64,000 bases of DNA from Dryomyza anilis (taxonomy: Eukaryota; Arthropoda; Insecta; Diptera; Dryomyzidae): the NCBI GenBank assembly GCA_951804985.1, contig OX638132.1, positions 40,582,619 to 40,646,618 on the forward strand, read 5' to 3'. Made by a program: the position numbers and the translations under genes. The notes under the pieces are model-generated. The model searched no databases, was not told the origin of the DNA, and saw only the letters and a program-made list of their open reading frames with translations. Positions 4,558-37,727 of this stretch are shown one piece after another (position 1 is the stretch's first letter; every line of letters starts with the position of its first letter).

Positions 4558-5689
4558 ATGTCTAACTCTAGACAAAAGCGTTGTATTCTTGCATTAAACG
4601 CAATAAATGAGTCAGGGAAATACGTTGAAAACAGCAAGAAACGACGATTTTGGGTAAATCCATTTTTGGAATTGATGGGACTGAATGATATAGAAGCGAA
4701 ACTGCTGAAAGACATTCTGTGGGAGGATGGAACCAATTTACACATTTTTGCAGAATGACTATCCATAACTTCAATTTTGTACTTGCACAGGTAGTAGTTA
4801 TCATTAATTTATTTACTGTAGAATTTACAGCGCAATAAAATGTTTTTGTAGGTCGAACCAAAAATCAAAAAACAAGACACGGTTATGCGTTATGCCATAT
4901 TTTCAAGACTGCGACTTGAAATTACTTTAAGATATATAGATACGGACGATTCATACAGGTCATTGGATTTTTTAACATATATTTCAAGAAAAATGATCAG
5001 TACATTTGTGCCAGAAGTACTACAGTCAATTATTGAAGCTCCTCAGACTGAATGTTTGCAAGTAAAATAATTTTAACAATTCATTGTAACAGTTGTGGGT
5101 AATATGGCATATTTGCAGACACCGCACTCGCAGAAAGAGTGGCTATTGGTAGCGAACGATTTCAATCAGTTTTGGGATTTTCCACATATGATGGGAAACA
5201 TATCCGGATAAAGGCGTCATCAAATTCTGGTTCAGATTTTTACAACTTTTTAGTATTGTCCTACTGGCGGTGATAGATGCACACAGTCGCTTCTTTAACA
5301 TTGATGTCGGTGGCAATGGACACGCGTCTGATGTTATTATTCTTAAGAATAGCAGTTTATTCCAAGGACTTAAATCCGGAACACTAAACACCACCTGCTG
5401 AACCTTTAAATGGCCACGAATATAAAACACAATTTTTTTCATTGATGACGATATCTTTGTGTTAGACCGGAACTTTATGAAAGAATACAACAGAAATTCG
5501 AACCTAACCACATCACAGGAAGTGTTTAACTACAGGTTAAGTCGTGCACGTCTTACAGTCGAAATGGCGTTTGGAAGAATGGCATCTCTATTTAGGATTT
5601 TCCATCGTCCTATAGAAATCAATTTAAAAAGCTGCGACATTTTAGTGGCAACCTGTTGTGTTTTACATAATTTTCTTACAAAAAACTAG
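4558..5689 (+). pseudogene. PIF/Harbinger (HARBI1-like) transposase, inactive
   Basis: Known members cut and paste TIR elements with a DDE active site. The N-terminal exon starts at 4558 (MSNSRQKRCILALNAINES). After an intron comes a frame ending near 5067 with LEITLRYIDTDDSYRSLDF and FVPEVLQSIIEAP, both typical of the family. A GTAAAA donor at 5068 and a TTTGCAG acceptor near 5120 give a third exon with FWDFPHMMGNISG, matching the usual FPHCxGAIDGKH segment with the catalytic aspartate altered. Stops and frameshifts follow from about 5205. The C-terminal part is readable at 5459-5689 (RARLTVEMAFGRMASLFRIF, CCVLHNFL). The gene is clearly dead. Confidence 0.85.
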
Positions 5690-12398: not shown

Positions 12399-14061
12399 TG
12401 TTTACGTAGAACGTAAACACAGTGTGTGCGAACACGCCCGCCGGTCACACTCGTTGCAGCGATACTCGCTGCATGCTTTTTTGACGTTTTAAGTACAAGA
12501 TCGTCATTCATTACGATTTACTCTGCCGAACGTACGTACCCAAACACATCCGTCTCCGCGACAAAAGTTTAAAACCTAAAGTTAAACTATAAAAACCCGA
12601 ACCCGTCTCCGCGACAACATTTAAAAAACCCATCAAACGCGACAATTCGGTCACGGCGACATAATAAACAAACACAAGAAACAAACACAATAAACAAATC
12701 ACACAAAATCAACATTCAACTCTAAACCCAACAACAACAAGGATTTCAACGAAACACTTCTCCAAGAAGACGACACAGAAATCTACGAACATTACACCAA
12801 TTTTCATGAAGTCATCCACCCCTCGTACAATAAGGTAAATCTTTGTTATACATTTTAAATCCGCCACGCCAACCAGTTCACCACCCGAACATTTGATCCA
12901 AAAAAGCCTTTAATAAAAAAGGACAGCGTAAAGTTTTGCCGCGGATTGAACCGACCCACAAAAACATTTAAATTTTGGTACAATTTTATAATATATTGTA
13001 TTTACTCGACCCACATACAAAAGGTGATTAAATTTAGTTAATTTGGCGATTTTTTTTTTGGCAAAAATTTATTGTTTTTTGCGACCCGAACTCAAACAAC
13101 AGAGTTACACGAATTACGAAACGATCATTTCATTAAAATAATCGTGCGCCAAATAATTTTTAATCAAAACTAAAAATCACAGTTTTTACAAATGGTAATG
13201 ATTATAAATTTGAAACATATTACAATATATTTTGCCTTACAAGTGTGCACTCGTTTGTTTATTTGCTTTAGTTGCATTATTTGCTCATAAAACAAATAGA
13301 CATAAACACTAATACACTCACAGTAAAGAGCGCTGCCGTGTTTTCGTCGGAATTTTATAAATTACCCGTGGGAACCAAAAACCCATATTTTTTGGAAATT
13401 GCATATTGAGTAATATTTAACCCTTTTAAACCCGCATTAAAGCTTTTTTAAACCTTTTCGACAAAAAAATCAATTTTATTGATATTTAATAATTTTTTAT
13501 TGAAAAACTATTATAAAAAATTACCCGACCCGTTTTTTATCAAAAATATTTTTTAAGCTTAACCCATAGCGACCCCAAATCATTTAATTGATTTTTTAAA
13601 TATAGTTTAATAATTTTGTTTTACAAAATTAATTCTTTTATCGAATTATTAAAAAAAAATTGATTTATAACAAATTACGACCCAAAAAGCTTAACTGCGC
13701 TATAAAATTTTATTTGCGACCCGGTTTACCACTAAATAAAATTTTAAAGTTAACCCATTTTGACCCAAAGATACATTTTTCAAATTTTGTTGAAGTTTAC
13801 CTAAAAACGAATTGATTTAATACGTTTTTATCGTTCTATCATTGTAAACAAATCATTTTGATTTCTGTTAACCCATACACACCCAAACATAAAAATAATT
13901 TATATATTTTTTATAAGTTTAAGATTTATTTTCTGAAAAAATATTGCGACCCGTGATAATCTTTTAGATTAAGCCATCCAGACCCACTATATATTATTGA
14001 AATATTTGTGATTGTATCAAATTAGTTGAATATTTTTAAACCCTACACAATAATAAATAAT
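12399..14061 (+). other. 5' LTR/leader-like region of the BEL/Pao remnant
   Basis: Precedes the gag frame. It has a TATA-like box at 12588-12595, a doubled CCGTCTCCGCGACAA word (about 12550 and 12605), and an AATAAAC near 12664, as in an LTR. I could not fix LTR ends or a primer-binding site. The remaining leader is AT rich, and nearly all of its cytosine runs are ACCC/GACCC words on this strand (for example 13081, 13521, 13716, 13762, 13948, 13981). Confidence 0.45.
12588..12595 (+). promoter_or_regulatory. TATA-like box
   Basis: TATAAAAA upstream of the BEL/Pao leader, between two copies of CCGTCTCCGCGACAA. Its use as a promoter is an inference from position only. Confidence 0.35.
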
Positions 14062-15090
14062 ATGGCGGCTGACAGCATTTTTCAATCTGGAAACGATATT
14101 TTTGATTTTGAGCAAAGTATTTGCGAGACCCCTACCCAAGATTTAATACTTCATGCCTTGGAGTTTCATCAGAAGCAGCTTACATTTCTGGGGGATAATT
14201 TTCAAGCTTCGTATCATTCTGTACGAGGTGAAGCCGACAATCCCGATGTGGACAGAAAGAAGCTGAAGGATAAATATTCCAAAGCATACAACGCGTACAT
14301 ACGCTGTATTGCGTCAATTTCAGAAATAATGGAGACATTCAAGCACTCGGTAGAAACTCCCAAGGCAAGAGAAGAAACGACCCCGATACAATACGAACCC
14401 TGTATAACTTTACCCCCATGTGACATGGATATTTTTGATGGTGATTATGCTACATGGCCCACTTTCAGAGATCTGTTTTCGGCTATGTACATTAACAATT
14501 CCCGATTAAGTGATGTAGAAAAATTATTCTACCTTAATCAAAAGACCGGAGATGAAGCAAATGATATTGTAAAAAATGCTCCGGTTACCAATGCTAGATT
14601 CTCATTTGCTTGGTCTAATCTCGTTGAGCAATACGAGAATAAGCGGATGTAAATAAATGCGCAATTAAATACTCTTTTTAATTTGCAAGCAGTGATGTTT
14701 GAGTCAGGTTGTTCCATTAGGAAGCTATAAATGACTGTATTATGACCCTTTAAAATTTGCAATTGACACAAAGAGCTGGGATCTTTGAACGTGTTTCTGA
14801 CCCGAACATATAGGACACTCGAAGCTGTTGATGATATGAAGCCATCGACTTCAAGTCACAGCCGAGATGGTTCTGGACCCGAATCTTGGGGAGAAAATAT
14901 GAATACATATCTCATGAATGTTTCTGAGACCCATTGCGCATTTGGACCCACACATAATACAGATCCAAGACCCACATTTGCAAAGCCAACCCAATGGGAA
15001 TTTGAAGAGGACCTTTGCCCATTATGGAAAGCCCAGCACACTTTCATCGAGTGCCTGCACGGTAAAAAATGTTGGCATATTTTTAAACCC
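14026..15090 (+). pseudogene. BEL/Pao Gag (DUF1759), N-terminal part
   Basis: Structural protein of a BEL/Pao retrotransposon. An ATG at 14062 (MAADSIFQSGNDIFDFE) is as likely a start as that at 14026. The DUF1759 core is clear: LPPCDMDIFDGDYATWPTFR, DLFSAMYINNSRLSDVEKLF and NAPVTNARFSFAWSNLVEQY. The frame stops at 14650, but the expected continuation INAQLNTLFNLQAV is readable immediately after, then frame changes. A later piece from 14785 gives FLTRTYRTLEAVDDMKPSTS and the first zinc-binding unit, CPLWKAQHTFIEC, in which one cysteine is replaced by tryptophan. The gene is broken and then cut by an insertion. Confidence 0.85.
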
Positions 15091-20903: not shown

Positions 20904-21398
20904 TGTTAATATCTCCAATGTTGAATTATACTTACTCCTACTTTAGTACTTTAATTATTTCCCAATAAATAATATATATTTGAATTCTTTTAATTTAAAC
21001 TTAGACTTTATTTCAACACTTTTTAGCCCAATATTTTTGGCTTGTTACACCTCTAAATTCTATTACACAACTCACTTAAAATTTAACTTAACTATTGTAA
21101 GAAGGCATGTTTCAAATCTACATGTTCCGGCAGAGTGCCGTGCGCAAATTCCACTCACTATTTGCTTCCGTAAGGGAAAAAGCCCTTAGCCAATCATGCT
21201 GCTGCTGGTTTGACCCAGCTTCGCTCATACTGTTGCTAGTTCATTGGCTTGCTGGACTATGACACATATGTCCTACGTTGCACTTTACTGCAACGTAACG
21301 ATAACTGCATGAAGTAGTCATCGCGTAAGTAGGTCACGATACGTTTATAATATCAACGTATAGTGACTTACCAAAACACACTATGTTGACTTACAACA
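20904..21398 (-). repeat. errantivirus 3' LTR
   Basis: 495 bp, TGTT...AACA ends, same length as and apparently identical to 33391-33885. The 69-codon frame inside each LTR is a by-product and not a gene. Confidence 0.92.
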
Positions 21399-21978: not shown

Positions 21979-22878
21979 CTAAATCATTACATAAGCTGGT
22001 CCCAATGTCGTTATGCTTGGCTTTCGACTCTGCTCTTCGTCCTCATATTTCTGTTTAACAACTTCAGCTCGTTTACTTGTGGTTGGCCGAAATGCAATAC
22101 GCTCCGCTAACTCGTTCTCCTCAATTTTTACGCTACTGATGGCATTTACTGTTGCTACTGTCTCCCTAACCTTCAGTGACTCTGTTAATTTTAGCTTTCT
22201 CGATGATTCTACTCGAAGGTACCAAAAATACGCTAATACCACGAAGATTAACACCAACACTACCACGCCGTACGATGCTCCCATAGTCTTCATCTCGTGC
22301 TGATGCTTTAGCCATTCTAGCCGCTCCTGCTTCTGACTCATTTCCGCTTTCAGATCTTCAAAACTGCGCTGGCCATCTCTTAGTGCTGACCGTAATTTGC
22401 TGTGGTCCGACGTCTGTATTGGCAAAAGTGTGACTGACGCATTTTCTGTGCGTAACGCTCCCCATTCCCCCTTTATATTTTCGATATACAAGGTGTGCTC
22501 CTCTTTTTTATAGGTTACATTCCTGAACATTCTTGGTGCAGATTCATAAGGCAATATTAATTCTCTGTTGTGCAAGTCGCAGGCCTCATTCACTGACATC
22601 CACCCCATCCCTGCTAGCGTCAGTGTAGCCGTGTTTGTTCCGCAAATCGCTTCGAAAACCTCTGGCGTGTCAAACCTGAACAACCAGGAGTTTGAAGCCC
22701 ATAGTTTCACTACCAACCCTGAACTCTTTCTAATAGCTACATGTTCACAGGTATTCACTATATCTGTCCTTTGTTGCATTAACGTGACCTCACAAAGTAC
22801 ATTGCTGCTCGTCATAATCGTTCCCGGACGTCTACATAGCGTTATCTCCTTGTCCATCTCTTGATCACCGTAACACAT
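21979..22878 (-). pseudogene. env: Env, C-terminal part with transmembrane segment
   Basis: Continuation of the envelope protein whose first part is 22842-23996, in another frame. It contains paired cysteines in a CxxP-like ectodomain (residues about 15-100), N-glycosylation-type sites (NVT, NAS), a heptad-rich stretch (about 165-197), one strong membrane segment (GVVVLVLIFVVLAYFWYL, about 204-221) and a basic cytoplasmic tail of about 78 residues. This is the layout of errantivirus/baculovirus F-type fusion proteins. A small indel near 22880 breaks the link with the first part. Confidence 0.85.
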
Positions 22879-23996
22879 CTTAAATGATCCTCGAGCGTTA
22901 ATCCTATGAATCTACTCCGATCTTCCGCCTCAGCTATGTAGTCATACTTTGTCTTAACCAGCGAGTCCCATTCCTCATTGATGTCAATGGGGATCGGATA
23001 AATCCTGTACAACGCAAATAACACATCATCCGGCAGTGGTGTCTTAATTATGAAGATCAGACTATCCCCGTCCGGAAAAACTCGTACCTTTGACAAATGA
23101 TGCATATCAAAAGTCTGTTGAATAAACCAATTCGCTTTGCCCCTTAATTTGAGACGGGCCAACATTGCGTCTAGTTCCTTTCGGTCTATTATCGTAGGAT
23201 GCAGATCCCCCTTGTAGAGATCGTCAATTATTGCCATTTCTATTGATTGTTGTCCCTGAATCTCCATTAAATTAGCATTTATGGTTGACTGTATTTCCAA
23301 CAAATGTAACATAAACTGTACTTTGTTGAGCTTGTTATCTATATCTCTATTTATTTTCTGCTGTTGTTGTATGGTGTTGTTTAATGTCATCTGTAGTTCT
23401 TCCACCTCCCTTAGAGAATCCAGCAATGGTGCTGACAGTTTTCCAAAATTAGATGTCATCACCGTCACCTGTTTCCTCATGACGTCATAGGTTTCGCTCT
23501 CTCGGTTCTCAATGTCCTCCAGATGTTTGTATATCTTTTCTCGATCACTGTTGTCCATTACGCCGAAAGCCCAGTTAAAGCCCTCACCTACGAAATTTAG
23601 CGACCTCTTTTGGCGATTCTTTTGAATAGTTCTTTTAATAACACCCTCATTTTTCTGTAATGTCCTCATTATCGACGATGTTTCTTGCATTGCCGCTTCA
23701 CACGATCTTCCGAAATTCATTCCTGGTACGCTTGAACTCATTTTCCGGCACATTTCAATGGCTGCTTCCATATATTTTTTCGTTAGATCCAGAAAATTCG
23801 TCAACTGCAGTGGTATGAACTTAGATATCACTGTCCATTCGTCACTATAAAATAATGCCTCAGTAGTTTTCTCAAAAAATATTCTTGTCTCGTTCATCGG
23901 CGTCTGCGTGATGTTGACTGCTTCAGCTGCTGCCAACACCAGGACCAGCATAAGGATCTTATTCATAATGTCCCTAAAACAAAAATAATTATACAT
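22842..23996 (-). pseudogene. env: Env, N-terminal part with signal peptide and cleavage site
   Basis: The likely start is the methionine at 23966, followed by a hydrophobic signal peptide (MNKILMLVLVLAAAEA). A furin-type site RQKR lies at residues 128-131 of the long frame and is followed by SLNFVGEGFNWAFGVMD, which matches the fusion-peptide region of F-like errantiviral Env. A long heptad-containing region follows. The frame ends early at 22842 because of the break near 22880; the two parts together span about 670 residues, normal for this family. Env lets such elements form infectious particles in flies; with this break the copy probably cannot. Confidence 0.88.
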
Positions 23997-24303
23997 ATCT
24001 ATAATATATATAATTATTTACACTTATGTCCTAAGTTAATCTACCTTTCCCACCTTAGCATACTACATAAAATTATTCCATACACTTACATTTTAATTTC
24101 CACCTGGTTCAAATTTTTTATCTTCTTTTTTATTTACTTTAAAATTCAAAAACCTAAAGTTTCTTTATCCAAATTTAATCGTTTAATCTCAACTTTATAT
24201 TTAATATTTATTTTGTCCAAACTTAAATTTGCTATAGTCGTACACTCACCGTAGAACCTCATTTAAACAATGTGTCGTGAGTTAACGAACTGTCCTCAGT
24301 ACT
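23997..24303. other. spacer between env and the antisense gene
   Basis: AT-rich. It may hold the env splice acceptor on the minus strand and the promoter of the plus-strand gene; only the latter's TATA-like box is visible at its right edge. Confidence 0.4.
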
Positions 24304-24310
24304 TATAAAG
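24304..24310 (+). promoter_or_regulatory. TATA-like box of the antisense gene
   Basis: TATAAAG 172 bases before the proposed ATG, followed by a TTCAGT initiator-like word at 24319-24324. The spacing between the two is shorter than usual, so the start site is uncertain. Confidence 0.4.
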
Positions 24311-24481
24311 TGTCCAAATTCAGTATTTTACAAAAACGGCGCCGGCTATTTTCGGTCGAAATGCGGAGTCAAATTCGCGATTTTTTATTTTTTTATTTTA
24401 AAAATGTTCATATTTGTCTTCTATGGACGACAATCATTTAGTTGCAGTTTATTCTTTGGATATTCAACTTCAATTTTAATC

Positions 24482-25208
24482 ATGTTCCGTAAGTAAAAAT
24501 TGTATTTATTTTTGTATATATATTTATATATTTATTTATTTATATATATTTCTTGGTTATATATTCTTCAGGAAATGTTTTTAACCCTACTGCGGCCCAG
24601 GGCCTACAGGAGGACAGGCGCGAGAAACTGCGCAAGGAGCAGGATGAGCTCCGGGCTGCCCGAAGGCAGCAACCTCCTGCCGTGAGGCAGCATCCTTTAA
24701 CAATTAGCGATCTAGACGCGTTACGACAACAAGGATTAGTCATCGAGCATTCAGATGAGAACAGTTAGTAAATTTAGATTTTTAAATTACTCATTTCTAT
24801 TAAATATATATATATATATTTTTTTTAAATTAATTAATTTTTGTTTTCTTTTTTTTGTTTTGGTTCTTTTCAGACATTCTCACAAATTTTGATGATATTG
24901 ACTTCAGTGACGACAACACCGAGTATGTTCGAGGTAGGATGAGCGAACGTCAGGTTATGCTCATCTGGAACAGCAACCAACTAAAATATTTCGAGTCATA
25001 TTTGACAACGCTCAGGGCGAATTGGTGGGATGAAGGCGTTGATACACGCCTGCATCGCCTCATCGAATATTACAAGGATGATCCAACATTTGAAGTTTTT
25101 CTCATAATTTGCCGCGAAATCGTGCGTTTAGAGAAGGAAGCCGGCCCGCTGATCGGGACGCTGTTCGTCCCGCGGGTGGTCATGTACTTGGGTGCCTTCA
25201 CCCCCTAA
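24482..25208 (+). CDS. three-exon antisense accessory gene in the errantivirus, function unknown
   Basis: I do not recognise this protein. Exons: 24482-24488, 24572-24763 and 24874-25208. Introns 24489-24571 (GTAAGT...TTCAG) and 24764-24873 (GTTAGT...TTTTCAG) have pyrimidine-rich acceptors. Joining them keeps one frame, about 177 residues. Residues about 12-45 are charged and probably helical (GLQEDRREKLRKEQDELRAA), then an acidic stretch, then a globular half with NWWDEG, RLHRLIEYYKDD and a hydrophobic end. There are one cysteine and no signal peptide or membrane span. Codons are GC rich, unlike gag, pol and env. It lies between pol and env on the opposite strand, so its introns would survive copying of the element's RNA. 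It could be a host or viral capture. Confidence 0.75.
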
Positions 25209-25279
25209 AATATGTGAAATTTATTTGAAAATGATGTAAAAATGATGTGAAAAATTATATTAAAACCAAGATTAAAAGA

Positions 25280-25285
25280 AATAAA
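25280..25285 (+). terminator. poly(A) signal of the antisense gene
   Basis: AATAAA 72 bases after the stop codon, followed by an A-rich tract; completes a self-contained transcription unit on the plus strand. Confidence 0.5.
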
Positions 25286-25934: not shown

Positions 25935-25990
<56 letters not shown>

Positions 25991-25992
<2 letters not shown>

Positions 25993-26522
25993 CAATTCTT
26001 GCTACTTTGCACCTTCCCTTTACTCTACGCCGTCTCGCGCCATCTAGCCATTTATTATGATTTTAATATTTTATTTAATGCATTAACGTATCTCATTTCA
26101 TTTGTAGTGTATTAACAGCGAGCAGTGGTTCCTATCGTATGAGTCAATGCCTTTGACTGACCTATATTAATTGTAGTGACAATTCAACTTTTATTTTAGT
26201 TAATTAGTTTTATTTTATTATTATTATTTTATTTAAATTTATTCTTTTTTTTTTAAACCAATTCTTGCTACTTTGCACCTTCCCTTTACTCCACGCCGTC
26301 TCGCGCCATCTAGCCATTTATTATGATTTTAATATTTTATTTAATGCATTAACGTATCTCATTTCATTTGTAGTGTATTAACAGCGAGCAGTGGTTCCTA
26401 TCGTATGAGTCAATGCCTTTGACTGACCTATATTAATTGTAGTGACAATTCAACTTTTATTTTAGTTAATTAGTTTTATTTTATTATTATTTTATTTAAA
26501 TTTAAGTTAAATTACCTTACTC
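25991..26522. repeat. 266-bp tandem duplication
   Basis: ACCAATTCTTGCTACTTTGC at 25991 recurs at 26257, and the two units stay nearly identical (one CTCTACG/CTCCACG change and small length differences in T and ATT runs). It includes the words GAGTCAATGCCTTTGACTGA and GCGAGCAGTGGTTCC. Confidence 0.85.
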
Positions 26523-26570
26523 CCTTATCTATTTTCTTTACTCAAACTTTGTTAGAAATTAATACATAAT

Positions 26571-26741
26571 TATTTCCTTATGTATTAATTTATTTTATTA
26601 ATATTAAATCCCTATATATTTATTTTATTTAATCCCTAAAACTCTTATTTACGCGTATTTCCTTATGCACTAATTTATTTTATTAATATTAAATCCCTAT
26701 ATATTTATTTTATTTAATCCCTAAAACTCTTATTTACGCGT
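26571..26741. repeat. 85-bp tandem duplication
   Basis: TATTTCCTTATG at 26571 and 26656, each followed by ATTAATATTAAATCCCTATA and ending TTATTTACGCGTA. Confidence 0.85.
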
Positions 26742-26859
26742 ACATTGCCCCCTTTTTTTTTATTTTTTTTTTTTTTGCTCTTCACCCTTATTTGCAATAT
26801 TATGCTTTTAACATTATCTAAATTATGTGTTATGATATTTACGAATTGTTTGTTACGTT

Positions 26860-27030
26860 ATTTATTTTGTTATATTTGCTTCAAAATTATATGCTTTTAA
26901 TAAATTGTTATGGAATTTTTTCCCTTTTCCTTTGATAGAAATCATCGTCGTTACAGGACTTACTATCGAAAGTACTTCGTACGGTCCTACCCAAATGGGT
27001 GAAAATTTATTCTTTCTGTTCTGATTTTTT
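26860..27030 (-). pseudogene. pol: Pol C-terminal end (GPY/F-type), out of frame
   Basis: Directly after the stop of the long pol frame the minus strand encodes, in another frame, an integrase C-terminal module with the word FSPIWVGPYEVLSIV, the GPY/F motif of Ty3/gypsy integrases, then a short basic tail. A small deletion or frame change near 27030 separates it from pol. Confidence 0.8.
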
Positions 27031-30000
27031 AACAATATTTTATTTGTAATGTGCTATCATAGATTTGTTTAGATTTTTCTTTTGCTTTTTCTTGATTCTC
27101 TCTCACGATTTCGTGTGTGCGTTGAATTTGATATTTTAATAACTTGTTGTAATCTTCGGTATTATATACTGGTGAACATTTTCGCTTAAGATTTGTTGGC
27201 ATCTCAAATTCGTACCCGTATAAAGTACGGAAAGGTGTTTGCCCCGTGGACATATGTACTGTGTTATTGTGCACATGCATTGCTGAATTTAACCATTGGT
27301 CCCAGTTCGACCCATCTTCTTTTGCAAAACTTCTTAAATATTCTGCTAACGGTCGATGGCTTCTTTCCAAAGACCCATTAGCTTGTGGATGATATGGTGT
27401 AATATGTAATTTTTTAATTCCTAACAATTTACAAGTATCTGAAAACAGTTTTGAGACAAAGTTGGAACCATTGTCCGTTACTAATACCTTCGGTATATTA
27501 TGACGTGTAATGATTTCGTCGTAAAATGCTTTTGCTACTGTATTTGCCTCCGCATCAGGTATCGCAACGCAGCACATGTATTTTGAAAAATCATCTTGAA
27601 AAGTTAATATATATTTATTTCCAGATATAGTTTCCGGTAAAATACCTACAAGATCCATGTATACTTTATCGAATGGTCGTACAGGCGTATCAGTTAAAAC
27701 CATTGGCATTTTAGTAAGCCTAGAACTTTTATTTACTTGGCATTTTTGACAATTCTTAACGTAATCTTTTATTTGTTTCTGCATACCTTTCCACTTAAAT
27801 TGTTTTCTGATTCTAAAATATGTTTTCACTGCGCCCTGGTGACCCCCTAATGCTGAGTCATGAAAGTCTTTTATAACAGTTTTAATTTCCTCTGGGTCAG
27901 TTAATATTAGACTTGAGTTTAATTCGTTCTTGGTGTCTGTTGTTATTTCATCCAGTACTGGCGTGCTCACTTGTTGTTTGGTTTTTGAAATTTGATTATC
28001 TAATTTATTCTGTGTGGTCTTAGACCGTGTTTGGACCGCAGTAATATCTGGTTCTGGATGTGGAATTCTACTTAAAGCATCTGCGTTCAAATTCTGTTTA
28101 CCTGGTTTGTAAGATATTTCGTAATCATATTCTGATAATTTATGTCTGAAACGGGCTAACCTTGATGTTTGATATTTGAGATTTGCTGTGCTACGTAATG
28201 GTTGATGGTCTGTATAAATTTGAAAATGTCGGCCTAGAAGATAAGCTCTAAAATTTTTCGTTGCCCAGACTATAGCTAAAAATTCCTTTTCAATGGTGGA
28301 GTAATTTTTTTCTGCTCCATTTAATGCCCTACTAGCAAATGCTATTGGTCGGTCGCTCCCTACTTTGCCTTGTGACAGTACCGCACCTATTGCTTCGTTA
28401 CTGGCATCCGTTGTAAGTAAAAAAGGTTTTGTAAAATCTGGATATGCGAGAATGGGTGGTGAAATTATTGATTCCTTTAGTTTAATAAATGAATTTTGAC
28501 AATCGTCGGTCCAAGTGAATTTAACATCGTTTCTAAGTAACTTATTAATTGGTAATGATAATTTTGCCATATTGTTTATAAATTTTCTGTAATAATTAAT
28601 TAATCCCAAAAACGCTTGTACTTCTTTTTTATTTCTTGGTACCGGAATATTTTTCACGCATTCAACCTTTGAGGGGTCTGGCAGAGCACCTAGTTCCGAA
28701 CATTTATGTCCTAAATAGACAACTTCGCGGCGCAAAAACTGACATTTTTCTGTATTTAATTTTAGATTGTGTTCCCTTAATTTCTGCAATACTCTACTCA
28801 ACCTAAGCTCATGTTCAGCTAAATTCTTTCCGTACACCACTATATCATCAAGATAAACAAAGCAATCAATACCCTGTAAACCTGTTAATATGTGGTTCAT
28901 TATTCTTTGGAAGGTAGCTGGTGCACCTGTTAAGCCAAATGGCATTCTGTTAAATTCGAAATGACCCAGTCCTGTACTAAAAGCCGTTTTTTCTTTATCT
29001 CTTTCTTCTACTAAAACTTGATGATAACCGCTTGCTAAGTCTAAAGTTGAAAAATATCTACTATGTCCTAACTGATCTAATATCTCGTCTATCCGGGGAA
29101 TCGGAAATACTTGTTTTATTGTCACGTCATTTAGTTTACGAAAATCTATTACTAATCTCCATTTCTTGTTACCTTCCTTACCGCTCTTTTTTGGTACCAG
29201 CAATAATGGTGAATTCCAAGGTGAGATACTCGGCGATATAATGCCGTCATCTAACATTTTTCCTACCTGTCTATTAATTTCTTCCCTATGTGTATGGGGT
29301 AGCTTATATTGTTTCTGATTAATTGGCGGTTGGTTCCACTGTGTAATTATTTCATGTTTAAGCGCTGACGTGTATGTTAATTCATCGCCATCTAAATGAA
29401 AAACATCATGATAAGAAATACACAGATTTTGTAAAGATGTAATTTCGTCTTTATTTAAAGTCTCATCAATTTTCATTTTCTCTAATAATCTGTTAATTCT
29501 GTTTGTAATGTTTACTGAATTTATGCTGTTTATTGTAGAATTATTTGTATCCGATTCCTTATACTGGTTAAAATTTGAAAATTTTGGTTTAAAAGTACTG
29601 TCTATTATAATTTCCTTCTCTGTAGCACTTAAAACTGAGACATAAACTCTATTTTTGCTGACATTCGATATGCTTTCGCCCAAATATACTCCTGGACAAA
29701 TTTCTTGTTTATGTATTAATACGATCGGAATTTTTGTTTTTAGACGTAATGATACTATCTTTGCGGTTCTAGGTTCTATTTTTAATTCCTGATTTAAAAA
29801 AATATTTTCCATATCTGTCCGTGTCCTCATAGGTAATTGTATAGTATTGTTTTTATCTTTATCATAAAATATTAAACTCTTATCTATAGCATTTATTATG
29901 GACCTATTCCATATATTATCCCGTCCTATTATACCATCAGCGGGTATTCCTTGCTCAATTGCCACTACATGCATCTTTAAACGGAACCACTCTATACTAC

Positions 30001-30310
30001 TGTGCTGAATGTTTATTGTCCCTAATGTCCTTACGCATCCCCCAAAGGCACCACTAAAGTCCTTCTGAGTATTTTTATCAAAACCTGGAAATCTTGTCAT
30101 TGCCCCCTCCTTTACTATACTAGCATCTGCTCCCGAATCTACCAGTAATATGAGTTTTCCATTTTTAGCAGCCTCACAAGGTACTTCGATGAAAACATCA
30201 CTTACATTAGGTAGTTTGAAACAATCACCCTGCCTACTGCATATTATACCGTTCCCTCTTTTACTAAACCCACACATATTGCATCTAATCTTCTTACTAT
30301 ATTCTACCAC
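27029..30310 (-). CDS. pol: errantivirus Pol: protease, reverse transcriptase, RNase H, integrase
   Basis: Polyprotein of 1093 codons in one open frame. Order: a CxxC-bearing leader, aspartic protease (LLVDSGADASIV, residues about 56-68), reverse transcriptase (FSTLDLASGYHQV, MPFGLTGAPATFQ and the catalytic YLDD near 485), RNase H (LTTDASNEAIGAVLSQ near 630, TDHQPL), and integrase with the HHCC zinc module (HDSALGGHQG ... CQKCQ, from about 820) and the three acidic residues in MDLVG, TDNGSNF and NGSLERSH. All catalytic residues I can check are present. The annotated start is a GTG; the frame is open further upstream to about 30428 and would normally be entered from the linker. The last part of integrase is shifted out of frame at about 27030. 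Confidence 0.93.
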   Translation of the reverse strand: MVEYSKKIRCNMCGFSKRGNGIICSRQGDCFKLPNVSDVFIEVPCEAAKNGKLILLVDSGADASIVKEGAMTRFPGFDKNTQKDFSGAFGGCVRTLGTINIQHSSIEWFRLKMHVVAIEQGIPADGIIGRDNIWNRSIINAIDKSLIFYDKDKNNTIQLPMRTRTDMENIFLNQELKIEPRTAKIVSLRLKTKIPIVLIHKQEICPGVYLGESISNVSKNRVYVSVLSATEKEIIIDSTFKPKFSNFNQYKESDTNNSTINSINSVNITNRINRLLEKMKIDETLNKDEITSLQNLCISYHDVFHLDGDELTYTSALKHEIITQWNQPPINQKQYKLPHTHREEINRQVGKMLDDGIISPSISPWNSPLLLVPKKSGKEGNKKWRLVIDFRKLNDVTIKQVFPIPRIDEILDQLGHSRYFSTLDLASGYHQVLVEERDKEKTAFSTGLGHFEFNRMPFGLTGAPATFQRIMNHILTGLQGIDCFVYLDDIVVYGKNLAEHELRLSRVLQKLREHNLKLNTEKCQFLRREVVYLGHKCSELGALPDPSKVECVKNIPVPRNKKEVQAFLGLINYYRKFINNMAKLSLPINKLLRNDVKFTWTDDCQNSFIKLKESIISPPILAYPDFTKPFLLTTDASNEAIGAVLSQGKVGSDRPIAFASRALNGAEKNYSTIEKEFLAIVWATKNFRAYLLGRHFQIYTDHQPLRSTANLKYQTSRLARFRHKLSEYDYEISYKPGKQNLNADALSRIPHPEPDITAVQTRSKTTQNKLDNQISKTKQQVSTPVLDEITTDTKNELNSSLILTDPEEIKTVIKDFHDSALGGHQGAVKTYFRIRKQFKWKGMQKQIKDYVKNCQKCQVNKSSRLTKMPMVLTDTPVRPFDKVYMDLVGILPETISGNKYILTFQDDFSKYMCCVAIPDAEANTVAKAFYDEIITRHNIPKVLVTDNGSNFVSKLFSDTCKLLGIKKLHITPYHPQANGSLERSHRPLAEYLRSFAKEDGSNWDQWLNSAMHVHNNTVHMSTGQTPFRTLYGYEFEMPTNLKRKCSPVYNTEDYNKLLKYQIQRTHEIVRENQEKAKEKSKQIYDSTLQIKYC

Positions 30311-30404
30311 GAAATTCTCAAAACTTTTTGATATTCTTGATAATAAGTTGTTTACTCTATACCCTACTTTTACTACTTCCTCTCCAAATGCTCCCTTATA
30401 TTTT

Positions 30405-30880
30405 TCATATCCTGCTAGTTTTTTTTATTTTGTTCCCTAATGTAATCGACACAATACTTATAAAATATATGAAATGAATTATTATACCTGCTACTGTATT
30501 ACAAACCAAACAAGGTGGCTCAACATATGTATCAACTGTCAGTCCCGACGTTTGATGAACAATATTTTCGCCCATTTTTTCTCCCTTCACCTTCTCTTTA
30601 CAGACCAAACACGGTGGCTCAACATATGTATCAACGGTCACTCCCGACGTTTGATGAACAATATTTTCGCCCATTTTTTCTCCCTTCACCTTCTCCTTAC
30701 AGACCAAACACGGTGGCTTAACATATGTATCAACGGTCACTCCCGACGTTTGATGAACAATATTTTCGCTCACGGTTTTTTGGCTGTTATTCGCAACTTT
30801 GGTAGCAAATGTGATCACAGGCTCCCTTTGCGTATGATCCACTTTTTCTACCTTTGACCTAACTTTACTAATGTTAACGG
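30405..30880 (-). CDS. linker frame between gag and pol with three 33-residue repeats
   Basis: Lies in the -1 frame relative to gag, as expected for Gag-Pol fusion in this group, but a TAG at about 30887-30885 separates it from gag and a run of eight A at about 30421-30428 shifts it out of the pol frame. The frame codes for three near-identical repeats of 33 residues, each with the word TVDTYVEPPCLVC and a basic spacer KEKVKGEKMG. The CxxC pairs could bind metal. The opposite strand is also open here, which is a coincidence of the repeats. Confidence 0.6.
30506..30800. repeat. 99-bp tandem repeat, three copies, coding
   Basis: CCAAACAAGGTGGCTCAACA at 30506 recurs at 30605 and 30704, exactly 99 bp apart; the period is a multiple of three and keeps the minus-strand frame. 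The third copy loses similarity after about 30770. Confidence 0.95.
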
Positions 30881-30889
30881 GACCCTAGC

Positions 30890-32842
30890 TTACTGGCCTT
30901 GACTGGGCCCCTGGTAGTTTCCCTTATTGTGATTGTTACCACCGTTTGGCCCAAAATTTTGCTTAGCGTGGCAATCCGCTATCAAATGGCCAACTTGACC
31001 GCACCCATAACATGCTCTATTACTTCTGTAAGGCCTATTAGGCTTATCGTTGTTACTGTGGTTATTTCTAAAAGGATTATTATTTCCATTATTTTCATTA
31101 CCATAATTAGTATTATTATTAGTATTATTATTATAATTATTACTGTTATTTCCATGATTGGGAAAACCTCCACTACCCCCTTGATATGGCTGATTTGGTT
31201 TCTGTTGACTTTGATATTCGTTGTCCGGAAAGCCTTGGTATTGTTGATTACGATTTTGCGGCTGTTGGTAACCGTTATTTAGAAGTTCTTTGTATTGCTG
31301 ATTTTGTTGGTGCGGCTGTTGGTAACCGTTATTTTGAAGTCCTTTGTATTGCTGATTTTGTTGTTGCTCCTGGCACCCTTCCAGTCTATTTAATCCGCAT
31401 CGCCAACTCGATTCATGTCCGTACTTCTCGCATTCTCTGCAAAATGGTGTATTTTTGCGGATATAACAGTCATCCCTTGTGTGTCCTGGTCTAGTGCAAA
31501 AAGAACAGACTGGCCCTTTTTTCATGGCACCCCCTGTATACCAATTATTTTTTTGATTTTTACTCCTATCTTGTCTTAAAATTCTATTATCATTTTCTTG
31601 ATTATTTTTACTATACGAAGTTCCATTCGGTATTTTTTCCAAACTATACAGTTCCTTCGGTAGTTTCGGCCCCCTCTGTATTGTAGCCTCTGCCCTTAAT
31701 GCTTCATCTAATAAATCATTTAAATTATCCGCCCTGCTACTCAACAGTAGTATCTTTACAGTCGGGTCACTCACTCCTACTTTAAATGCAGTGAGCACTG
31801 AATTTACTAGCTCTGTGTTAAAAACGTCCGTTGGCAGGTTCTTCTTTTTGTACATTGTATCGGCTATGTCGTTTGCGTTTGACTGCAATACTTCTAATCG
31901 TCTTGCAAATGCCCTCAAACTTTCCCCTCCACCTTGATATGCTTGTCTTATGTTGTATTGTACGGAATCTAATGTAGCTACCTTTAAATATGTGTTTTTA
32001 AGCAAATCAAATAAGGATTCTAAATCATTGATTTTCTTAGTCCTCACTAATTCGTATGCATCTCCATCAAGACGCAGTTTAACGCATATCATGAATTCTT
32101 CTTGATTTTCTTCACTTATATTAAGGTTCGCTGCCTTACAACCGTCTATAAATCTAAGAAGCTCCGTTTTTAGGTACGGTGAATCTTCGCCTTTGAACAC
32201 CGGGACCAGATTTCGTATGCATTTCGAAATATCGCCTGTAGGCATTTCAATTCTTGTTCTATCTGTTGTTATGTTTTCTAAATTTTCTTCTATTCTTAAA
32301 GCTTCTTTATGGTATAACGAAGTTTCTTGTGCTAATTTTACCTCCGCCTCTAAAAATCTGATCTTTGAGTCTAATTCTCTTACTTTGTTAGTTGCCTCTT
32401 CGACTGATTCAAATTCTAATCTAGGTTGTTGATGCAGTACTCTAGCTACTGATTCATCAGAAATATCTTTTTCTTTTAACAAAGCTCTTAATTTCTCGTT
32501 TTCCGACTCTAAACCGCAGGCGTGATCTAACAACTCCTGTTTTTCTGCTAATTTATCGTTTATTTTTTTCGTTAACGCTGCAATCTCGCCTTTCCAGTTT
32601 TCTATCTCCTTTATTTTATTTTCACTCTTGTGTTCCAAGAAATATATTAGTTCTTCGAACACGACATCTACTCTTTCTACTTCGGAAAAGACCTTTGTAC
32701 TATTTACTTTATTTTTTATTAATTGTAAATGTTCTTTGTTATTTACTTCGAGGCTGATTTGAGCCCACAATTTCTCCGTAAACCTGTCCAATTGCCCTAC
32801 TATATTCCTATAAGCTAACTGTGACTGATCCAATTCCGCCAT
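30890..32842 (-). CDS. gag: errantivirus Gag, coiled-coil start and Q/N-rich end
   Basis: 650 codons. Residues about 1-195 are largely charged and heptad-like (coiled coil). The capsid-like core runs from about 200 to 400 (VPVFKGEDSPYLKTELLRFI, FARRLEVLQSNA, EALRAEATIQRGP). A zinc knuckle CSFCTRPGHTRDDC lies near 447, a second cysteine/histidine cluster CRECEKYGHESSWRC near 468, and a knuckle CYGCGQVGHLIADC near 609. Between them is a long glutamine/asparagine tract with the short repeat QQYKGLQNNGYQQP. The start ATG is the first in the frame and lies about 550 bases inside the LTR. Gag forms the particle and binds RNA. Confidence 0.92.
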   Translation of the reverse strand: MAELDQSQLAYRNIVGQLDRFTEKLWAQISLEVNNKEHLQLIKNKVNSTKVFSEVERVDVVFEELIYFLEHKSENKIKEIENWKGEIAALTKKINDKLAEKQELLDHACGLESENEKLRALLKEKDISDESVARVLHQQPRLEFESVEEATNKVRELDSKIRFLEAEVKLAQETSLYHKEALRIEENLENITTDRTRIEMPTGDISKCIRNLVPVFKGEDSPYLKTELLRFIDGCKAANLNISEENQEEFMICVKLRLDGDAYELVRTKKINDLESLFDLLKNTYLKVATLDSVQYNIRQAYQGGGESLRAFARRLEVLQSNANDIADTMYKKKNLPTDVFNTELVNSVLTAFKVGVSDPTVKILLLSSRADNLNDLLDEALRAEATIQRGPKLPKELYSLEKIPNGTSYSKNNQENDNRILRQDRSKNQKNNWYTGGAMKKGPVCSFCTRPGHTRDDCYIRKNTPFCRECEKYGHESSWRCGLNRLEGCQEQQQNQQYKGLQNNGYQQPHQQNQQYKELLNNGYQQPQNRNQQYQGFPDNEYQSQQKPNQPYQGGSGGFPNHGNNSNNYNNNTNNNTNYGNENNGNNNPFRNNHSNNDKPNRPYRSNRACYGCGQVGHLIADCHAKQNFGPNGGNNHNKGNYQGPSQGQ

Positions 32843-33370
32843 ATAATGTTCAAAAAAAAAATTTTTTTTTTTTTTATTTAATCCCTAGAACTCTCCTCAG
32901 TTCACCTGGTTTCCCAATGTTAAAAAAAAAATTTAATTCTATAATTCCAAATTCGTTCATTAAAATGTTAAATTTTAAATGAATTTGACCATGAGAGAAA
33001 TATTAAAAATATTCTACAAATTTCCAATGTTATTTTAAATGTTCTAATTATTTTAAATTTTTCTTTATTTTTAATAGAATGTTCTTAATGTTTTAAATTT
33101 TATTTTTATTTAAATTTACCATTAAAATATTATTATGAATGTTCCGAGTATTTCAAATTTTATTTAATTTTTATTTAAATTTATTCAATAAAATGAATTA
33201 TGACAAATGAATATTATTTTGTGTGACAAAAAAGATGTTCTAAATTCGGTCTATTTCTACTACAACTTTTATAATTTTCAGAAATACTCACTTAAAATTC
33301 CTTTGTAACTTCCTTTACTTAAACAAAAAAAAATGTCTCTTCCTTCCTTCTTTTCTTCTTTCTGGTTCTT

Positions 33371-33390: not shown

Positions 33391-33885
33391 TGTTAATATC
33401 TCCAATGTTGAATTATACTTACTCCTACTTTAGTACTTTAATTATTTCCCAATAAATAATATATATTTGAATTCTTTTAATTTAAACTTAGACTTTATTT
33501 CAACACTTTTTAGCCCAATATTTTTGGCTTGTTACACCTCTAAATTCTATTACACAACTCACTTAAAATTTAACTTAACTATTGTAAGAAGGCATGTTTC
33601 AAATCTACATGTTCCGGCAGAGTGCCGTGCGCAAATTCCACTCACTATTTGCTTCCGTAAGGGAAAAAGCCCTTAGCCAATCATGCTGCTGCTGGTTTGA
33701 CCCAGCTTCGCTCATACTGTTGCTAGTTCATTGGCTTGCTGGACTATGACACATATGTCCTACGTTGCACTTTACTGCAACGTAACGATAACTGCATGAA
33801 GTAGTCATCGCGTAAGTAGGTCACGATACGTTTATAATATCAACGTATAGTGACTTACCAAAACACACTATGTTGACTTACAACA
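33391..33885 (-). repeat. errantivirus 5' LTR
   Basis: 495 bp, reads identical to 20904-21398 on inspection. Ends TGTT/AACA; followed by the GTTA target duplication. Confidence 0.92.
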
Positions 33886-33891
33886 GTTATT

Positions 33892-35190
33892 ATGGATTTC
33901 GCAAAGCACATTAAGCCACTGACAGGAGAGGCAGATTGGCCAATATGGAAACGCAAGATTCGTGACTTGCTAGACTACCATGAAGGCGCCGTGGACGTAA
34001 TTGAGAAAAGGCTCGTGAGACCAGGACCCTTGGCAGAAGGGGCTACGGAAGCGCAAATTAAGCTAAACAAAGAGAAAGCTGATTTGTACCGTAAGGCAAA
34101 TAGTTACGCGAAGTCAATGATTACGAGTTCTGTTACTGATGACGTGTATCAGAAGATCATGGACAAAGAGTCTGCTTATGATGCGTGGGAAGCACTTCAA
34201 CAGCAATTCGAGGCAACATCGAAGGATCAGCTATTCAAGATATGCAGTGATTTCTTCGTTTTTCATTGGACGTCTGGGCAGGATGTTGCAATGCATATTG
34301 CTAAACTGAGAACATTGTGGAATGAACTAAACAATGGTCTTAGAGCAAAAGAAGAGAGTGCGTTGCCTGATTTAATTTTAGTGTGCAAAACGCTGAACAT
34401 TTTGCCAAGCAAGTTTGAGAGTTTCAAATCCAGCTGGATGTTACTTAACAAAGAAGACGATAAGACATTTGACGAATTGACAACGCAGTTGTGTATGTTC
34501 GAGATAAATTTCATCAAAAGTGACGATAGCGAAATAGTTCAAGAGGCACTAGTAGCTAAGTCTTTTAAGCACAAGAATGATGGTCAAGCGAAGGCTAGCG
34601 GCAAAGGATTTCGGAGAGTGGACAGCTGTAATTATTGCAACAAGAAAGGTCATTGGGTAAAAGACTGCAGGAAGTGGATCGCCGATGGACGACCATCGAG
34701 GGAAAAGTCATATAGTGGCGTAAGCAACGTTCGAGACAGCAAGTTGGCGCTAGTTTCTGAAACTACTTCGAATGAATGGTGGATCGACAATGGTGCAACA
34801 AGGCACGTTACGAATTCCTTGGATTTCTTTATCGAATTCAAGAAGTTTGCGGATCCGTGCAGCATTAAAGCAGCAGGGAAAGAAGTCCTTGACTCACTTG
34901 GCATGGGCACAATTCGTGTTTTGTCAACAGTAAATGGCAAAACGCAATTAATCACACTAACAGATGTGTGGTACGTACCGAAAGTATGCAGAAATTTGTT
35001 TTCGGTTCTAGCAGCTCAAGACAAACACCACAATAGTAAATTCGAATCTACGGTGACGAAATGCAGTTTGGTAGTTAATGGTGAAACAGTCGTGTGTGGT
35101 GTTCGAGAAGTCTGCGGAACATTGTTCAAAGTTGCCATTAAACCAATTTGTCCAGAAGATCATGGTGAGAGAGTTGGGTATAAATGTTAA
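33892..35190 (+). pseudogene. copia Gag and protease
   Basis: The ATG lies six bases after the nested element. Gag core (UBN2 type) with LTGEADWPIWKRKIRDLLDY and AYDAWEALQQQFEA, a zinc knuckle CNYCNKKGHWVKDC near residue 247, then the aspartic protease with WWIDNGATRHVT, where copia proteins normally have D-S-G, so the catalytic triplet is altered. The frame ends at 35190; the usual histidine-rich segment before integrase (LWHRRLGH-like) is missing, pointing to a small deletion near 35150. Confidence 0.88.
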
Positions 35191-36279
35191 AATTGATGCT
35201 GAAAAATGTAAGCCGTGCATTTATGGAAAGGCGCATCGTTTACCTTTTGGTACCAGGAATAAAGCAGACAAACCTGGAGAACTGATGTCAACTGATGTAT
35301 GCGGACCGTTTCCAGATTCGTTCCAAAAGTTGAAATATTTAGTTGTTTTCAAGGACAGCTACACCAAATTTCTGTATGGTTTTATTGTCCGAGAGAAATC
35401 GCAAGTTAAGAATGTGTTGGTAGAAATGATAGCACATGCGAAAACCCAAGGGCATTCTATTAAGGATCTGCTAAGTGACAACGGCGGTGAGTTTGATAAC
35501 GCAGAAGTTCGGCAAATCCTGAAGAAACATGGCATAAATCAAAGGCTAACAGCGCCATATACACCGGAGCAAATGGCGGCAGTGAACGAGAAAATCGCAC
35601 AATTGTGGAGATGGCGAGAACATTCAAATACTCGAATCCAGATGTAATATTCCCAGAAGCAATTTGGGCGGAATTAGTGAGTTCCGCAGTCTACATTCTG
35701 AATAGAGTCGGAAAATCGTCAGTGGAAAACATGAGTCCACACGAACTTTGGATGGGCAAGAAACCAAGAATCAAGCACATGCGAATAATCGGCTCGCTGT
35801 GCTATGTACACGTTCCGGCACAGAAACGAAAGAAGATGGACGTAAAAGCTGTCAAGGGATACCTTGTAGGATATGATGGCGATGAGAGATATCGCGTTTA
35901 TATAAAAGAGAAGCACAAGGTTGTATGTTCCAGAGACGTAAATTTCCAGGAGAAGCTTGGTGTATGCGAAGAGCGCGTTACATTGCCACTTCGTGATATC
36001 GAAGAAAAAGACGACATTGATTCAACAGAAAATCACCAAGAAGAGCAGGACATCATAGAAATCGACTGCAGTGACGATGAGTTTGAAACAGGCGAAGGTA
36101 CCGAAACTTCAGAAGAAGAAGTCCAACTAAATCGACGTCTTAGAGATCGTTCCACATTGAGGAAACCGCAATATTTTGTGATGTCGGCCGAAGACCTTAT
36201 TAACGAAGAAGACACTCCAGAAGATTATAAAGACGTACGCATCATACAGAATGGAAAAGAACCATGGATAGTGAAATGA
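35160..36279 (+). pseudogene. copia integrase, frameshifted
   Basis: Starts in a different frame from Gag with CKPCIYGKAHRLPF (the CC half of the zinc module), then the catalytic core with MSTDVCGPFP, LLSDNGGEFDN and APYTPEQ. At about 35570 the frame changes by one base just before the third acidic residue; it resumes in the frame 35605-36279 (EMARTFKY, WAELVSSAVYILNRV, HELWMGKKP, KGYLVGYDG). An acidic linker leads toward the RT. Confidence 0.87.
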
Positions 36280-37727
36280 ACTCATTACTCCAGAATCAGA
36301 CTTGGAAGCTCAGTTCATTGCCGACAGGTGCAAAGGCAATTCCAAGTAAGTGGGTTTTCAAGTTGAAAACGAACCCAGATGGCAGTATTGACAAATACAA
36401 GCCACGTTTGGTAGTCAAAGGCTTCAGGCAGCGTGAAGGAATTGACTACAACCAAACTTTCAGTCCAGTTGCGAAGTTAGGAACTATTCGCGCAGTGTTG
36501 AGTATAGCAGCAAGCGAGCGAGTGCATCTCGCGCAGTTCGATGTATCAACAGCATTTCTATATGGACAATTAGACGAAATTGTTTATATGAGACAACCCG
36601 AAGGATACGAAGATGGTTCAAATCAAGTATGCAAACTTATGAGAAGTTTGTACGGACTGAAGCAAGCTCCAAGATGCTGGAACAAAAGGTTTGGAAATTT
36701 TCTTACAACATTGGGATTCAAAGCCAGCGATGCAGATCCATGTCTCTATATACGTGCAAAAGATGGCAAAAAACTCATTCTAGCATTATACGTTGACGAT
36801 GGGTTGATTGCAGCAACTGATCAACAGGATTTAGAATACTTTCTTTGCGAGTTGAAGTCAGAATTCAAGATTGTCTCAAAGCCAGCAAGTTATTTTTTGG
36901 GCCTAGAGATCGAAAGACACGCAAACTACATCAAAATTGATCAGAAGGCATACGCAAGAAGGATTCTTGAGCGTTTTAACTTTTCGGAGTGCAAACCGGT
37001 TTCAAGACCAATTTTGAAGACGTCCGAATTTCCAGAATCAGGGAAAGTTGATGACAGGACTCAAAACTTTCCGTATAGGCAAGCCGTAGGCGCATTAATG
37101 TATTTAATGCTCGGAACAAGACCGGATATGGCGTTCACAGTAGGATTCTTGTCAAGGTCACTGGAGAATCCAACCACTGAAGATATTGCTCGCGTCAAGA
37201 GAGTGTTTCGATACATAGCGGGTACGATTAATCTTGGCATAGTTTATAGTTGCAAGAGAAAGGGTATCATAGAGTGCTTCAGTGATGCAGATTTCGGAGG
37301 GTGTACAAAAACTGCTCGATCGACTACTGGAGTGGTTGTTGCATATGCAGACGGAACTATATCTTGGCTAAGTCAACGACAAGCTATGGTAGCAACATCG
37401 ACAACTGAAGCAGAGATCGTGGCGGCAAATGAAGCAGCTAAAGAAATTATTTGGATCAGCCGATTATATGGAGAAATTGTGCAGCTAAAGCAAGTTCCAA
37501 TTCTTCAAGTAGACAATTTTGCAGCAGTGAAGTTAGCACAAAATCCGGAGTTTCATCGCAGAACAAAACATATTGCAATCAAACATTTCTTTATAAGAGT
37601 GAAAATTTCTGAAGGTGTTATTGAAATTCAGCAAATTTTAACCACGGAGCAAGTTGCAGACATTATGACGAAACCTTTGTCAAAGACACGACTTCAGATT
37701 CCATGCGATCGAATGGGACTTCAATAG
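36264..37727 (+). pseudogene. copia reverse transcriptase and RNase H
   Basis: 487 codons in one frame, shifted against the integrase frame at about 36260. RT motifs: IPSKWVFKLKTNPDGS, QFDVSTAFLYGQLDE, LYGLKQAPRCWNK and the catalytic YVDD in LALYVDDGLIA. RNase H: FSDADFGG, STTGVVVAYADGTISWLSQ, TSTTEAEIVAANEAAKE. The end is complete (VADIMTKPLSK, usual for copia). The domain itself is intact, but it could not be made as part of the polyprotein. Confidence 0.92.

Follow-up and report, generated by a model that had tools for sequence, protein, structure and literature searches.

A predicted spliced antisense gene between pol and env of an errantivirus-like provirus in Dryomyza anilis

Results

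The provirus and its surroundings

The stretch of DNA analysed here, referred to as the window, comprises 64,000 nt of the Dryomyza anilis genome (contig OX638132.1, positions 40,582,619 to 40,646,618 of assembly GCA_951804985.1). It holds an errantivirus-like provirus on the minus strand, made up of gag, a pol of Ty3 type and an env of Baculo_F type between two LTRs. The interval from the end of pol to env is about 2.8 kb long (2.84 kb) and contains tandem duplications together with a plus-strand gene that is antisense to the element. Features are given below by their positions in the window.

20904..21398, minus strand: 3′ LTR
21979..22911, minus strand: 3′ ORF of env (Baculo_F, C-terminal part)
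22842..24017, minus strand: 5′ ORF of env (Baculo_F), divergent to the antisense gene
24301..24311, plus strand: TATA motif ACTTATAAAGT, unchanged in 34 of the 35 distinct copies
24404..24488, plus strand: coding part of exon 1; ATG 24404 gives a 203-aa form and ATG 24482 a 177-aa form
24489..24571, plus strand: intron 1, GT-AG, phase 1; 57-386 nt among copies
24572..24763, plus strand: exon 2, 192 nt long, extended to 228 nt in 7 of 40 copies
24764..24873, plus strand: intron 2, GT-AG, phase 1; 97-127 nt among copies, 546 nt in the relative L071
24874..25208, plus strand: exon 3, ending in the stop TAA; 335 nt in 34 of 40 rows
25280..25285, plus strand: AATAAA signal for 3′ end formation, unchanged in 33 of the 35 distinct copies
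25980..26860, no strand assigned: AT-rich spacer that follows pol and includes two tandem duplications
27029..30424, minus strand: pol ORF (RT, RNase H, integrase; protease match weak)
30890..32884, minus strand: gag ORF, with weak zinc-knuckle matches below the Pfam cut-off
33391..33885, minus strand: 5′ LTR, 495 bp, TG..CA, same sequence as the 3′ LTR

Pfam domains along pol follow the order RVT_1, RT_RNaseH, Integrase_H2C2 and rve, which is the Ty3/gypsy order, and the F-type envelope was recognised by PF12259 with one match per env ORF (E 4.5e-22 and 2.1e-9). The provirus is flanked at both ends by a 4-bp target duplication, GTTA. Since its LTRs are identical at 495 of 495 bases, the insertion would be young, and the antisense gene most likely moved with the element. 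Despite the identical LTRs, env in this copy is spread over two frames (21979-24017) and the pol ORF ends early (27029), the result of either mutation or assembly indels.

The tandem duplications in the spacer lie at 25979-26504 (266 bp, twice) and 26571-26742 (85 bp, twice), with units 97-98% alike. A second polypurine-like tract is present on the minus strand immediately behind pol (26748-26776), well away from the 3′ LTR, with A-runs followed by GGGGG and then CAATGTA; it may be a central polypurine tract or the relic of an older 3′ end. A Ty1/copia-type gag (Retrotran_gag_2) directly adjoins the provirus at 33880-37727, with pol-like ORFs identified by eye next to it. The window also contains a DDE_Tnp_4 transposase fragment (5426-5686) and a DUF1759 ORF (14026-14649).

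Structure and signals of the antisense gene

An earlier note on this DNA had described three exons joined in one frame by two GT-AG introns on the strand opposite to the element, with a TATA-like box in front and AATAAA behind. All of the coordinates given there were recovered: the junctions fall at 24488/24572 and 24763/24874, both introns are in phase 1, and the shorter reading frame has 177 codons. ATG 24404 lies in frame upstream of ATG 24482 and 100 nt downstream of the TATA motif, and an upstream ORF of 26 codons begins at 24361. The TATA motif is almost palindromic and sits inside the element, next to env. Since TATAAA and AATAAA are common in such AT-rich DNA, both signals carry weight mainly through their conservation across copies.

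The coding sequence contains 50% GC and the introns 12-13%. The shift in composition is sharp at three of the five exon borders tested, namely both edges of exon 2 and the right edge of exon 3, and small at the other two. The GC-rich codons remarked on in the earlier note are evident at third positions, where GC is 0.57 in the antisense coding sequence as against 0.32 in gag and 0.27 in pol, with the two env ORFs at 0.45 and 0.47. The donors are not strong (scores of 4.92 for donor 1 and 1.75 for donor 2); donor 2, ACA|GTTAGT, is unusual, and sites of such a score occur once per 84 nt.

By score, the strongest sense-strand donor of the element, ACG|GTGAGT, lies on the minus strand at 24244-24262, just after an ATG and below the TATA motif. 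It is exact in 24 of 35 copies and its GT is altered in five of the 35, which carry ACTCAACGT there. Use of this donor (24249) for an in-frame first env exon was considered and rejected, since it is out of frame with the best acceptor and has lost its GT in those five copies.

Comparison with shuffled sequence and coding signals

The 2.84-kb interval between pol and env was compared with 900 dinucleotide shuffles of itself, in which splice sites as weak as the claimed ones were permitted. In the actual interval the longest spliced ORF of the plus strand has two introns and 203 codons, as against 67 codons for the minus strand. Three of the 900 shuffles reached 177 codons and none reached 203, the largest being 193. 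The spliced coding sequence scored +11.8 bits in amino-acid log-odds, compared with −19.1 (sd 6.0) in controls, and its codon-position GC contrast was 0.224, compared with 0.007 (sd 0.045); on each measure, 0 of 500 controls reached the observed value. Taken alone, exon 2 scored −2.2 bits and exon 3 +5.9 bits on the amino-acid measure, on which a reverse frame of exon 3, containing three stops, scored +9.1 bits. Ten other long ORFs of the window were all negative.

Copies in the host genome

A search of the same genome with the gene itself as query found at least 40 copies of the gene region, the window included (46 rows at 40 distinct places). Forty of 173 candidates were scored, making this number a lower bound, and element copies without the gene would be missed by such a query. 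The 39 copies besides the window were examined together with some 1.5 kb of sequence to either side. Every one of them matched the provirus on both flanks of the gene, which is always antisense between pol and the 3′ LTR; in 19 of them the flanking stretch extends as far as the pol ORF end. The idea of a separate transposon inserted between pol and env was rejected because the 39 other copies share the same context and because AT-rich sequence makes up the 25 longest of 175 inverted repeats.

The check for the same gene in other copies of the element, proposed in the earlier note, thus returned a family in which 17 of 40 members are fully intact, with start, GT and AG of both introns, frame and stop all kept. 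The other 23 have frameshifts, stops or deletions, or have lost sites according to the alignment, which is what old copies would be expected to show. The donor GT is kept in 38 of 40 copies at donor 1 and in all 40 at donor 2, and the acceptor AG in 35 and 40, respectively; among distinct copies, donor 1 is kept in 35 of 36 and donor 2 in 36 of 36. ATG 24404 is present in 31 of 33 copies and ATG 24482 in 34 of 36. The block at 24260-24349 is among the more conserved parts of the region.

Among the intact copies the length of exon 2 is either 192 or 228 nt, and that of exon 3 is 335 nt. Exons 2 and 3 show 6.2 and 2.1 distinct indels per 100 nt, respectively, versus 22.9 and 40.9 in the introns, a contrast inflated in part by the AT repeats of the latter. 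The longer exon 2 reflects an in-frame insertion of 36 nt in seven copies (L009, L011, L012, L013, L017, L018 and L021). It requires three changes on the tree, so that exchange or loss is possible. Intron 1 is longer in four copies (386 nt in L036, 169 in L037, 199 in L038 and 153 in L040), with the length of exon 3 unchanged.

Selection on the reading frame

The comparison of nonsynonymous and synonymous change between copies, also suggested in the earlier note, gave a pooled pN/pS of 0.446 for the gene (codon bootstrap 0.305-0.672; 36 distinct copies), similar to that of env in the same copies (0.530). Wrong frames gave 1.544, 1.329, 1.147, 1.443 and, for reverse +2, 0.573. By part, pN/pS was 0.351 in exon 3 and 0.753 in exons 1-2. 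The ratio of nonsynonymous to synonymous variants was 33:22 for shared variants and 95:41 for singletons, a difference that is not significant (Fisher p 0.23). Among shared variants the ratio lies below the neutral expectation, with p of 0.002, 0.01 and 0.04 for a transition bias of 1, 2 and 4, and for all variants the nonsynonymous deficit has p of 0.0003, 0.009 and 0.08 under the same assumed biases.

More distant relatives were sought by a protein search of the genome, in which 150 of 222 candidates were scored. Among the matches listed, relatives of exon 3 extend down to 52% identity, and five of the eleven listed rows at 70% identity or less (L071-L075) were analysed. The frame stays open throughout the matched part in L071 and L072, which are about 65% identical to the window in exon 3; L071 is shifted near its C terminus, L072 is without a clear acceptor before exon 3, and L073, L074 and L075 carry stops. 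For exon 3, omega was 0.115 between the window and L072 (dN 0.21, dS 1.8), 0.140 between the window and L071 (dN 0.21, dS 1.5) and 0.133 between L072 and L071. The first two values are rough, since a dS of 1.5 or more is near saturation; the third is unaffected. Judging from these codon changes, the encoded protein is under purifying selection both within the element family and between related families.

L071 resembles the window in structure as well. Its exon 2 is 177 nt long with phase-1 borders on both sides, a GTT-type donor precedes its 546-nt intron, and the gene is antisense to a pol related to that of the window. Three blocks of the pol beside L071 (with L077) match the window pol; one contains shifts, and the other two differ from the window by a dS of 0.31 and 0.50. 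Set against a dS of 1.5 in the antisense exon 3, this suggests that the gene and the pol of L071 differ in history, unless rates differ greatly. Third-position GC in env and in the antisense gene is, moreover, above that of gag and pol, and the segment that runs from the antisense gene to env may thus move as a cassette. On the side of L071 where env would lie, the 1.7 kb covered contained no env but, by eye, a gag-like ORF of another element.

The predicted product

The predicted product is 21 kDa. In a structure model of low confidence it begins with a basic helix, followed by an acidic stretch whose net charge is −10 over residues 46-85 and by a C-terminal part that is helical. Exon 2 encodes the basic helix and the start of the acidic stretch, and exon 3 encodes the acidic stretch and the helical C-terminal part. 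Of the follow-up proposed earlier for the 177-residue product, structure prediction thus yielded the helical C-terminal part at low confidence, and the profile search came back empty: no Pfam family matched at E up to 1, and hence neither TRP28 nor bZIP. The suggestion that the gene might also be present in host or viral genomes was not borne out, sequence searches having found no host, viral or other relative of the product outside this genome.

Discussion

The number of copies, the signals kept in them, the pN/pS within the family and an omega of 0.12-0.14 between families argue for a selected antisense accessory gene over a chance arrangement. It is highly probable, on this comparative evidence, that the gene is real, that it is spliced and that it is under selection as part of the element. 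This agrees with the earlier view of it as a self-contained, intron-bearing gene; its frame, splice sites and signals recur in many copies. RNA polymerase II would start at the internal TATA motif between env and the gene, and the antisense RNA would be spliced and then polyadenylated at about 25.3 kb, with translation presumably beginning at ATG 24404 or 24482. The genomic RNA would carry the introns in reverse and leave them unspliced, allowing them to persist. That antisense introns should survive RNA-mediated copying was also argued in the earlier note, and it fits the finding that they persist and vary in length, with GT-AG kept in most copies.

Open frames and splice sites can arise by chance in AT-rich DNA, and the modest donor scores together with the frequency of TATA and AATAAA motifs would be compatible with such an origin. 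The shuffle result, the coding signals and above all the conservation across copies and families contradict it, the copies in themselves being sufficient to refute it, and we regard a chance origin as scarcely credible. A further alternative is that the gene was recently captured from a host and is now decaying as an unused passenger. Its GC-rich codons unlike those of gag and pol, its host-like introns and signals, and the 23 of 40 copies that are not intact could all be read in this way. However, relatives at 52-65% identity in exon 3 with an omega of 0.12-0.14 point to a gene that is old and selected, and none of the copies proved to be located outside such elements, although two of the five divergent ones (L072 and L075) could not be placed. 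A decaying capture is accordingly very improbable. Slightly less so, but still improbable, is a function at the level of RNA, in which an unstable or non-coding antisense transcript would tune env or genomic RNA by pairing. The better conserved block at 24260-24349 would suit such a function, and antisense non-coding RNAs of Drosophila micropia and TART are described in the available text of one report (PMC7264820). Selection between families nevertheless acts on codons, indels are rarer in exons than in introns, and the sole change in exon-2 length among intact copies is the 36-nt insertion, a multiple of three.

If a protein is made, its most likely role, by analogy with the antisense genes of plant Grande and Retand elements, is that of a regulator. 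Antisense proteins of deltaretroviruses act in trans as regulators, and the product may likewise act in trans on the expression or replication of its own element; we put this forward tentatively, at somewhat less than an even chance. The basic helix, acidic stretch and helical C terminus of the model would suit a regulator and are no proof of one. The product might instead counter a host defence such as small-RNA silencing. Counter-defence is a job of accessory genes in many viruses, and the gene is under selection and, wherever its place could be told, lies only beside element sequence. Against this, the product matches no known domain family, and nothing specific favours counter-defence, which we consider unlikely without being negligible.

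A broader reading of the regulatory proposal is that this is an insect lineage of env-bearing retroviruses with the layout of complex retroviruses, in which env and a spliced antisense regulator diverge from a shared internal promoter block and form a cassette that recombines between related elements independently of gag-pol. It is suggested by the conserved block at 24260-24349 with its almost palindromic TATA motif, by third-position GC in env and the antisense gene above that of gag-pol, and by the combination in L071 of a close pol (dS 0.31 and 0.50) with a distant antisense gene (dS 1.5). We consider it possible but doubtful.

Insect endogenous retroviruses serve as a model of the way in which retrotransposons turn infectious and small-RNA immunity responds. 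An intron-bearing accessory gene with its own signals and under selection would add a regulatory or counter-defence layer to gag-pol-env, in parallel with deltaretroviruses and the plant Retand and Grande elements. It would also illustrate a route by which introns can pass through RNA-mediated copying, namely placement on the opposite strand. The many copies in one genome make tests of expression, localisation and targets practical.

Comparison with known systems

With errantiviruses and insect endogenous retroviruses such as gypsy and ZAM the provirus shares a Ty3-type pol, a Baculo_F env and LTRs with a 4-bp target duplication. The available text of two errantivirus descriptions sets out gag, pol and a spliced env without mention of an antisense gene (PMC12992720, PMC13172572), whereas one is present here. 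Titles and abstract openings listed in searches of open-access literature likewise disclosed no spliced antisense coding gene in an insect errantivirus. In bdelloid rotifer LTR elements, captured ORF3s lie beside env (PMC5408684). The likeness is that of extra ORF types next to env in metazoan LTR elements, drawn from the description of the ORF3s, and the sole use of "antisense" in the text available for that paper refers to small RNAs.

The nearest known kinds are the antisense ORFs of plant Grande and Retand elements and the deltaretroviral HBZ and APH genes. According to the accessible parts of the plant reports, the region 3′ of pol is enlarged in Grande and Retand and carries an antisense ORF for which a regulatory role was proposed, and gene23 of maize Grande has its own upstream promoter (PMC7264820, PMC11963269); tandem repeats occupy the same region in about half of the Retand elements studied (PMC11963269). 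An antisense ORF 3′ of pol and tandem repeats in that region are thus shared with Grande gene23 and the Retand TRP28 ORFs. In contrast, the gene described here matches no TRP28 domain (no Pfam family at E up to 1), belongs to an insect-type element, in which it is placed between pol and a Baculo_F env, and has two introns; the word "intron" does not occur in the main texts on Grande and Retand (PMC7264820, PMC11963269). HBZ and APH are spliced antisense protein-coding genes that start in the 3′ LTR, as described in the available part of the source (PMC10186651), whereas the gene described here has a conserved TATA motif inside the element and may start there or in the LTR. Both are likened to it here by their descriptions. 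HBZ has a bZIP domain, for which the product gave no Pfam match at E up to 1. What the deltaretroviral genes and the Dryomyza gene have in common is a spliced antisense coding gene in an env-bearing retroelement, the splicing in the latter being predicted from conserved sites and frame.
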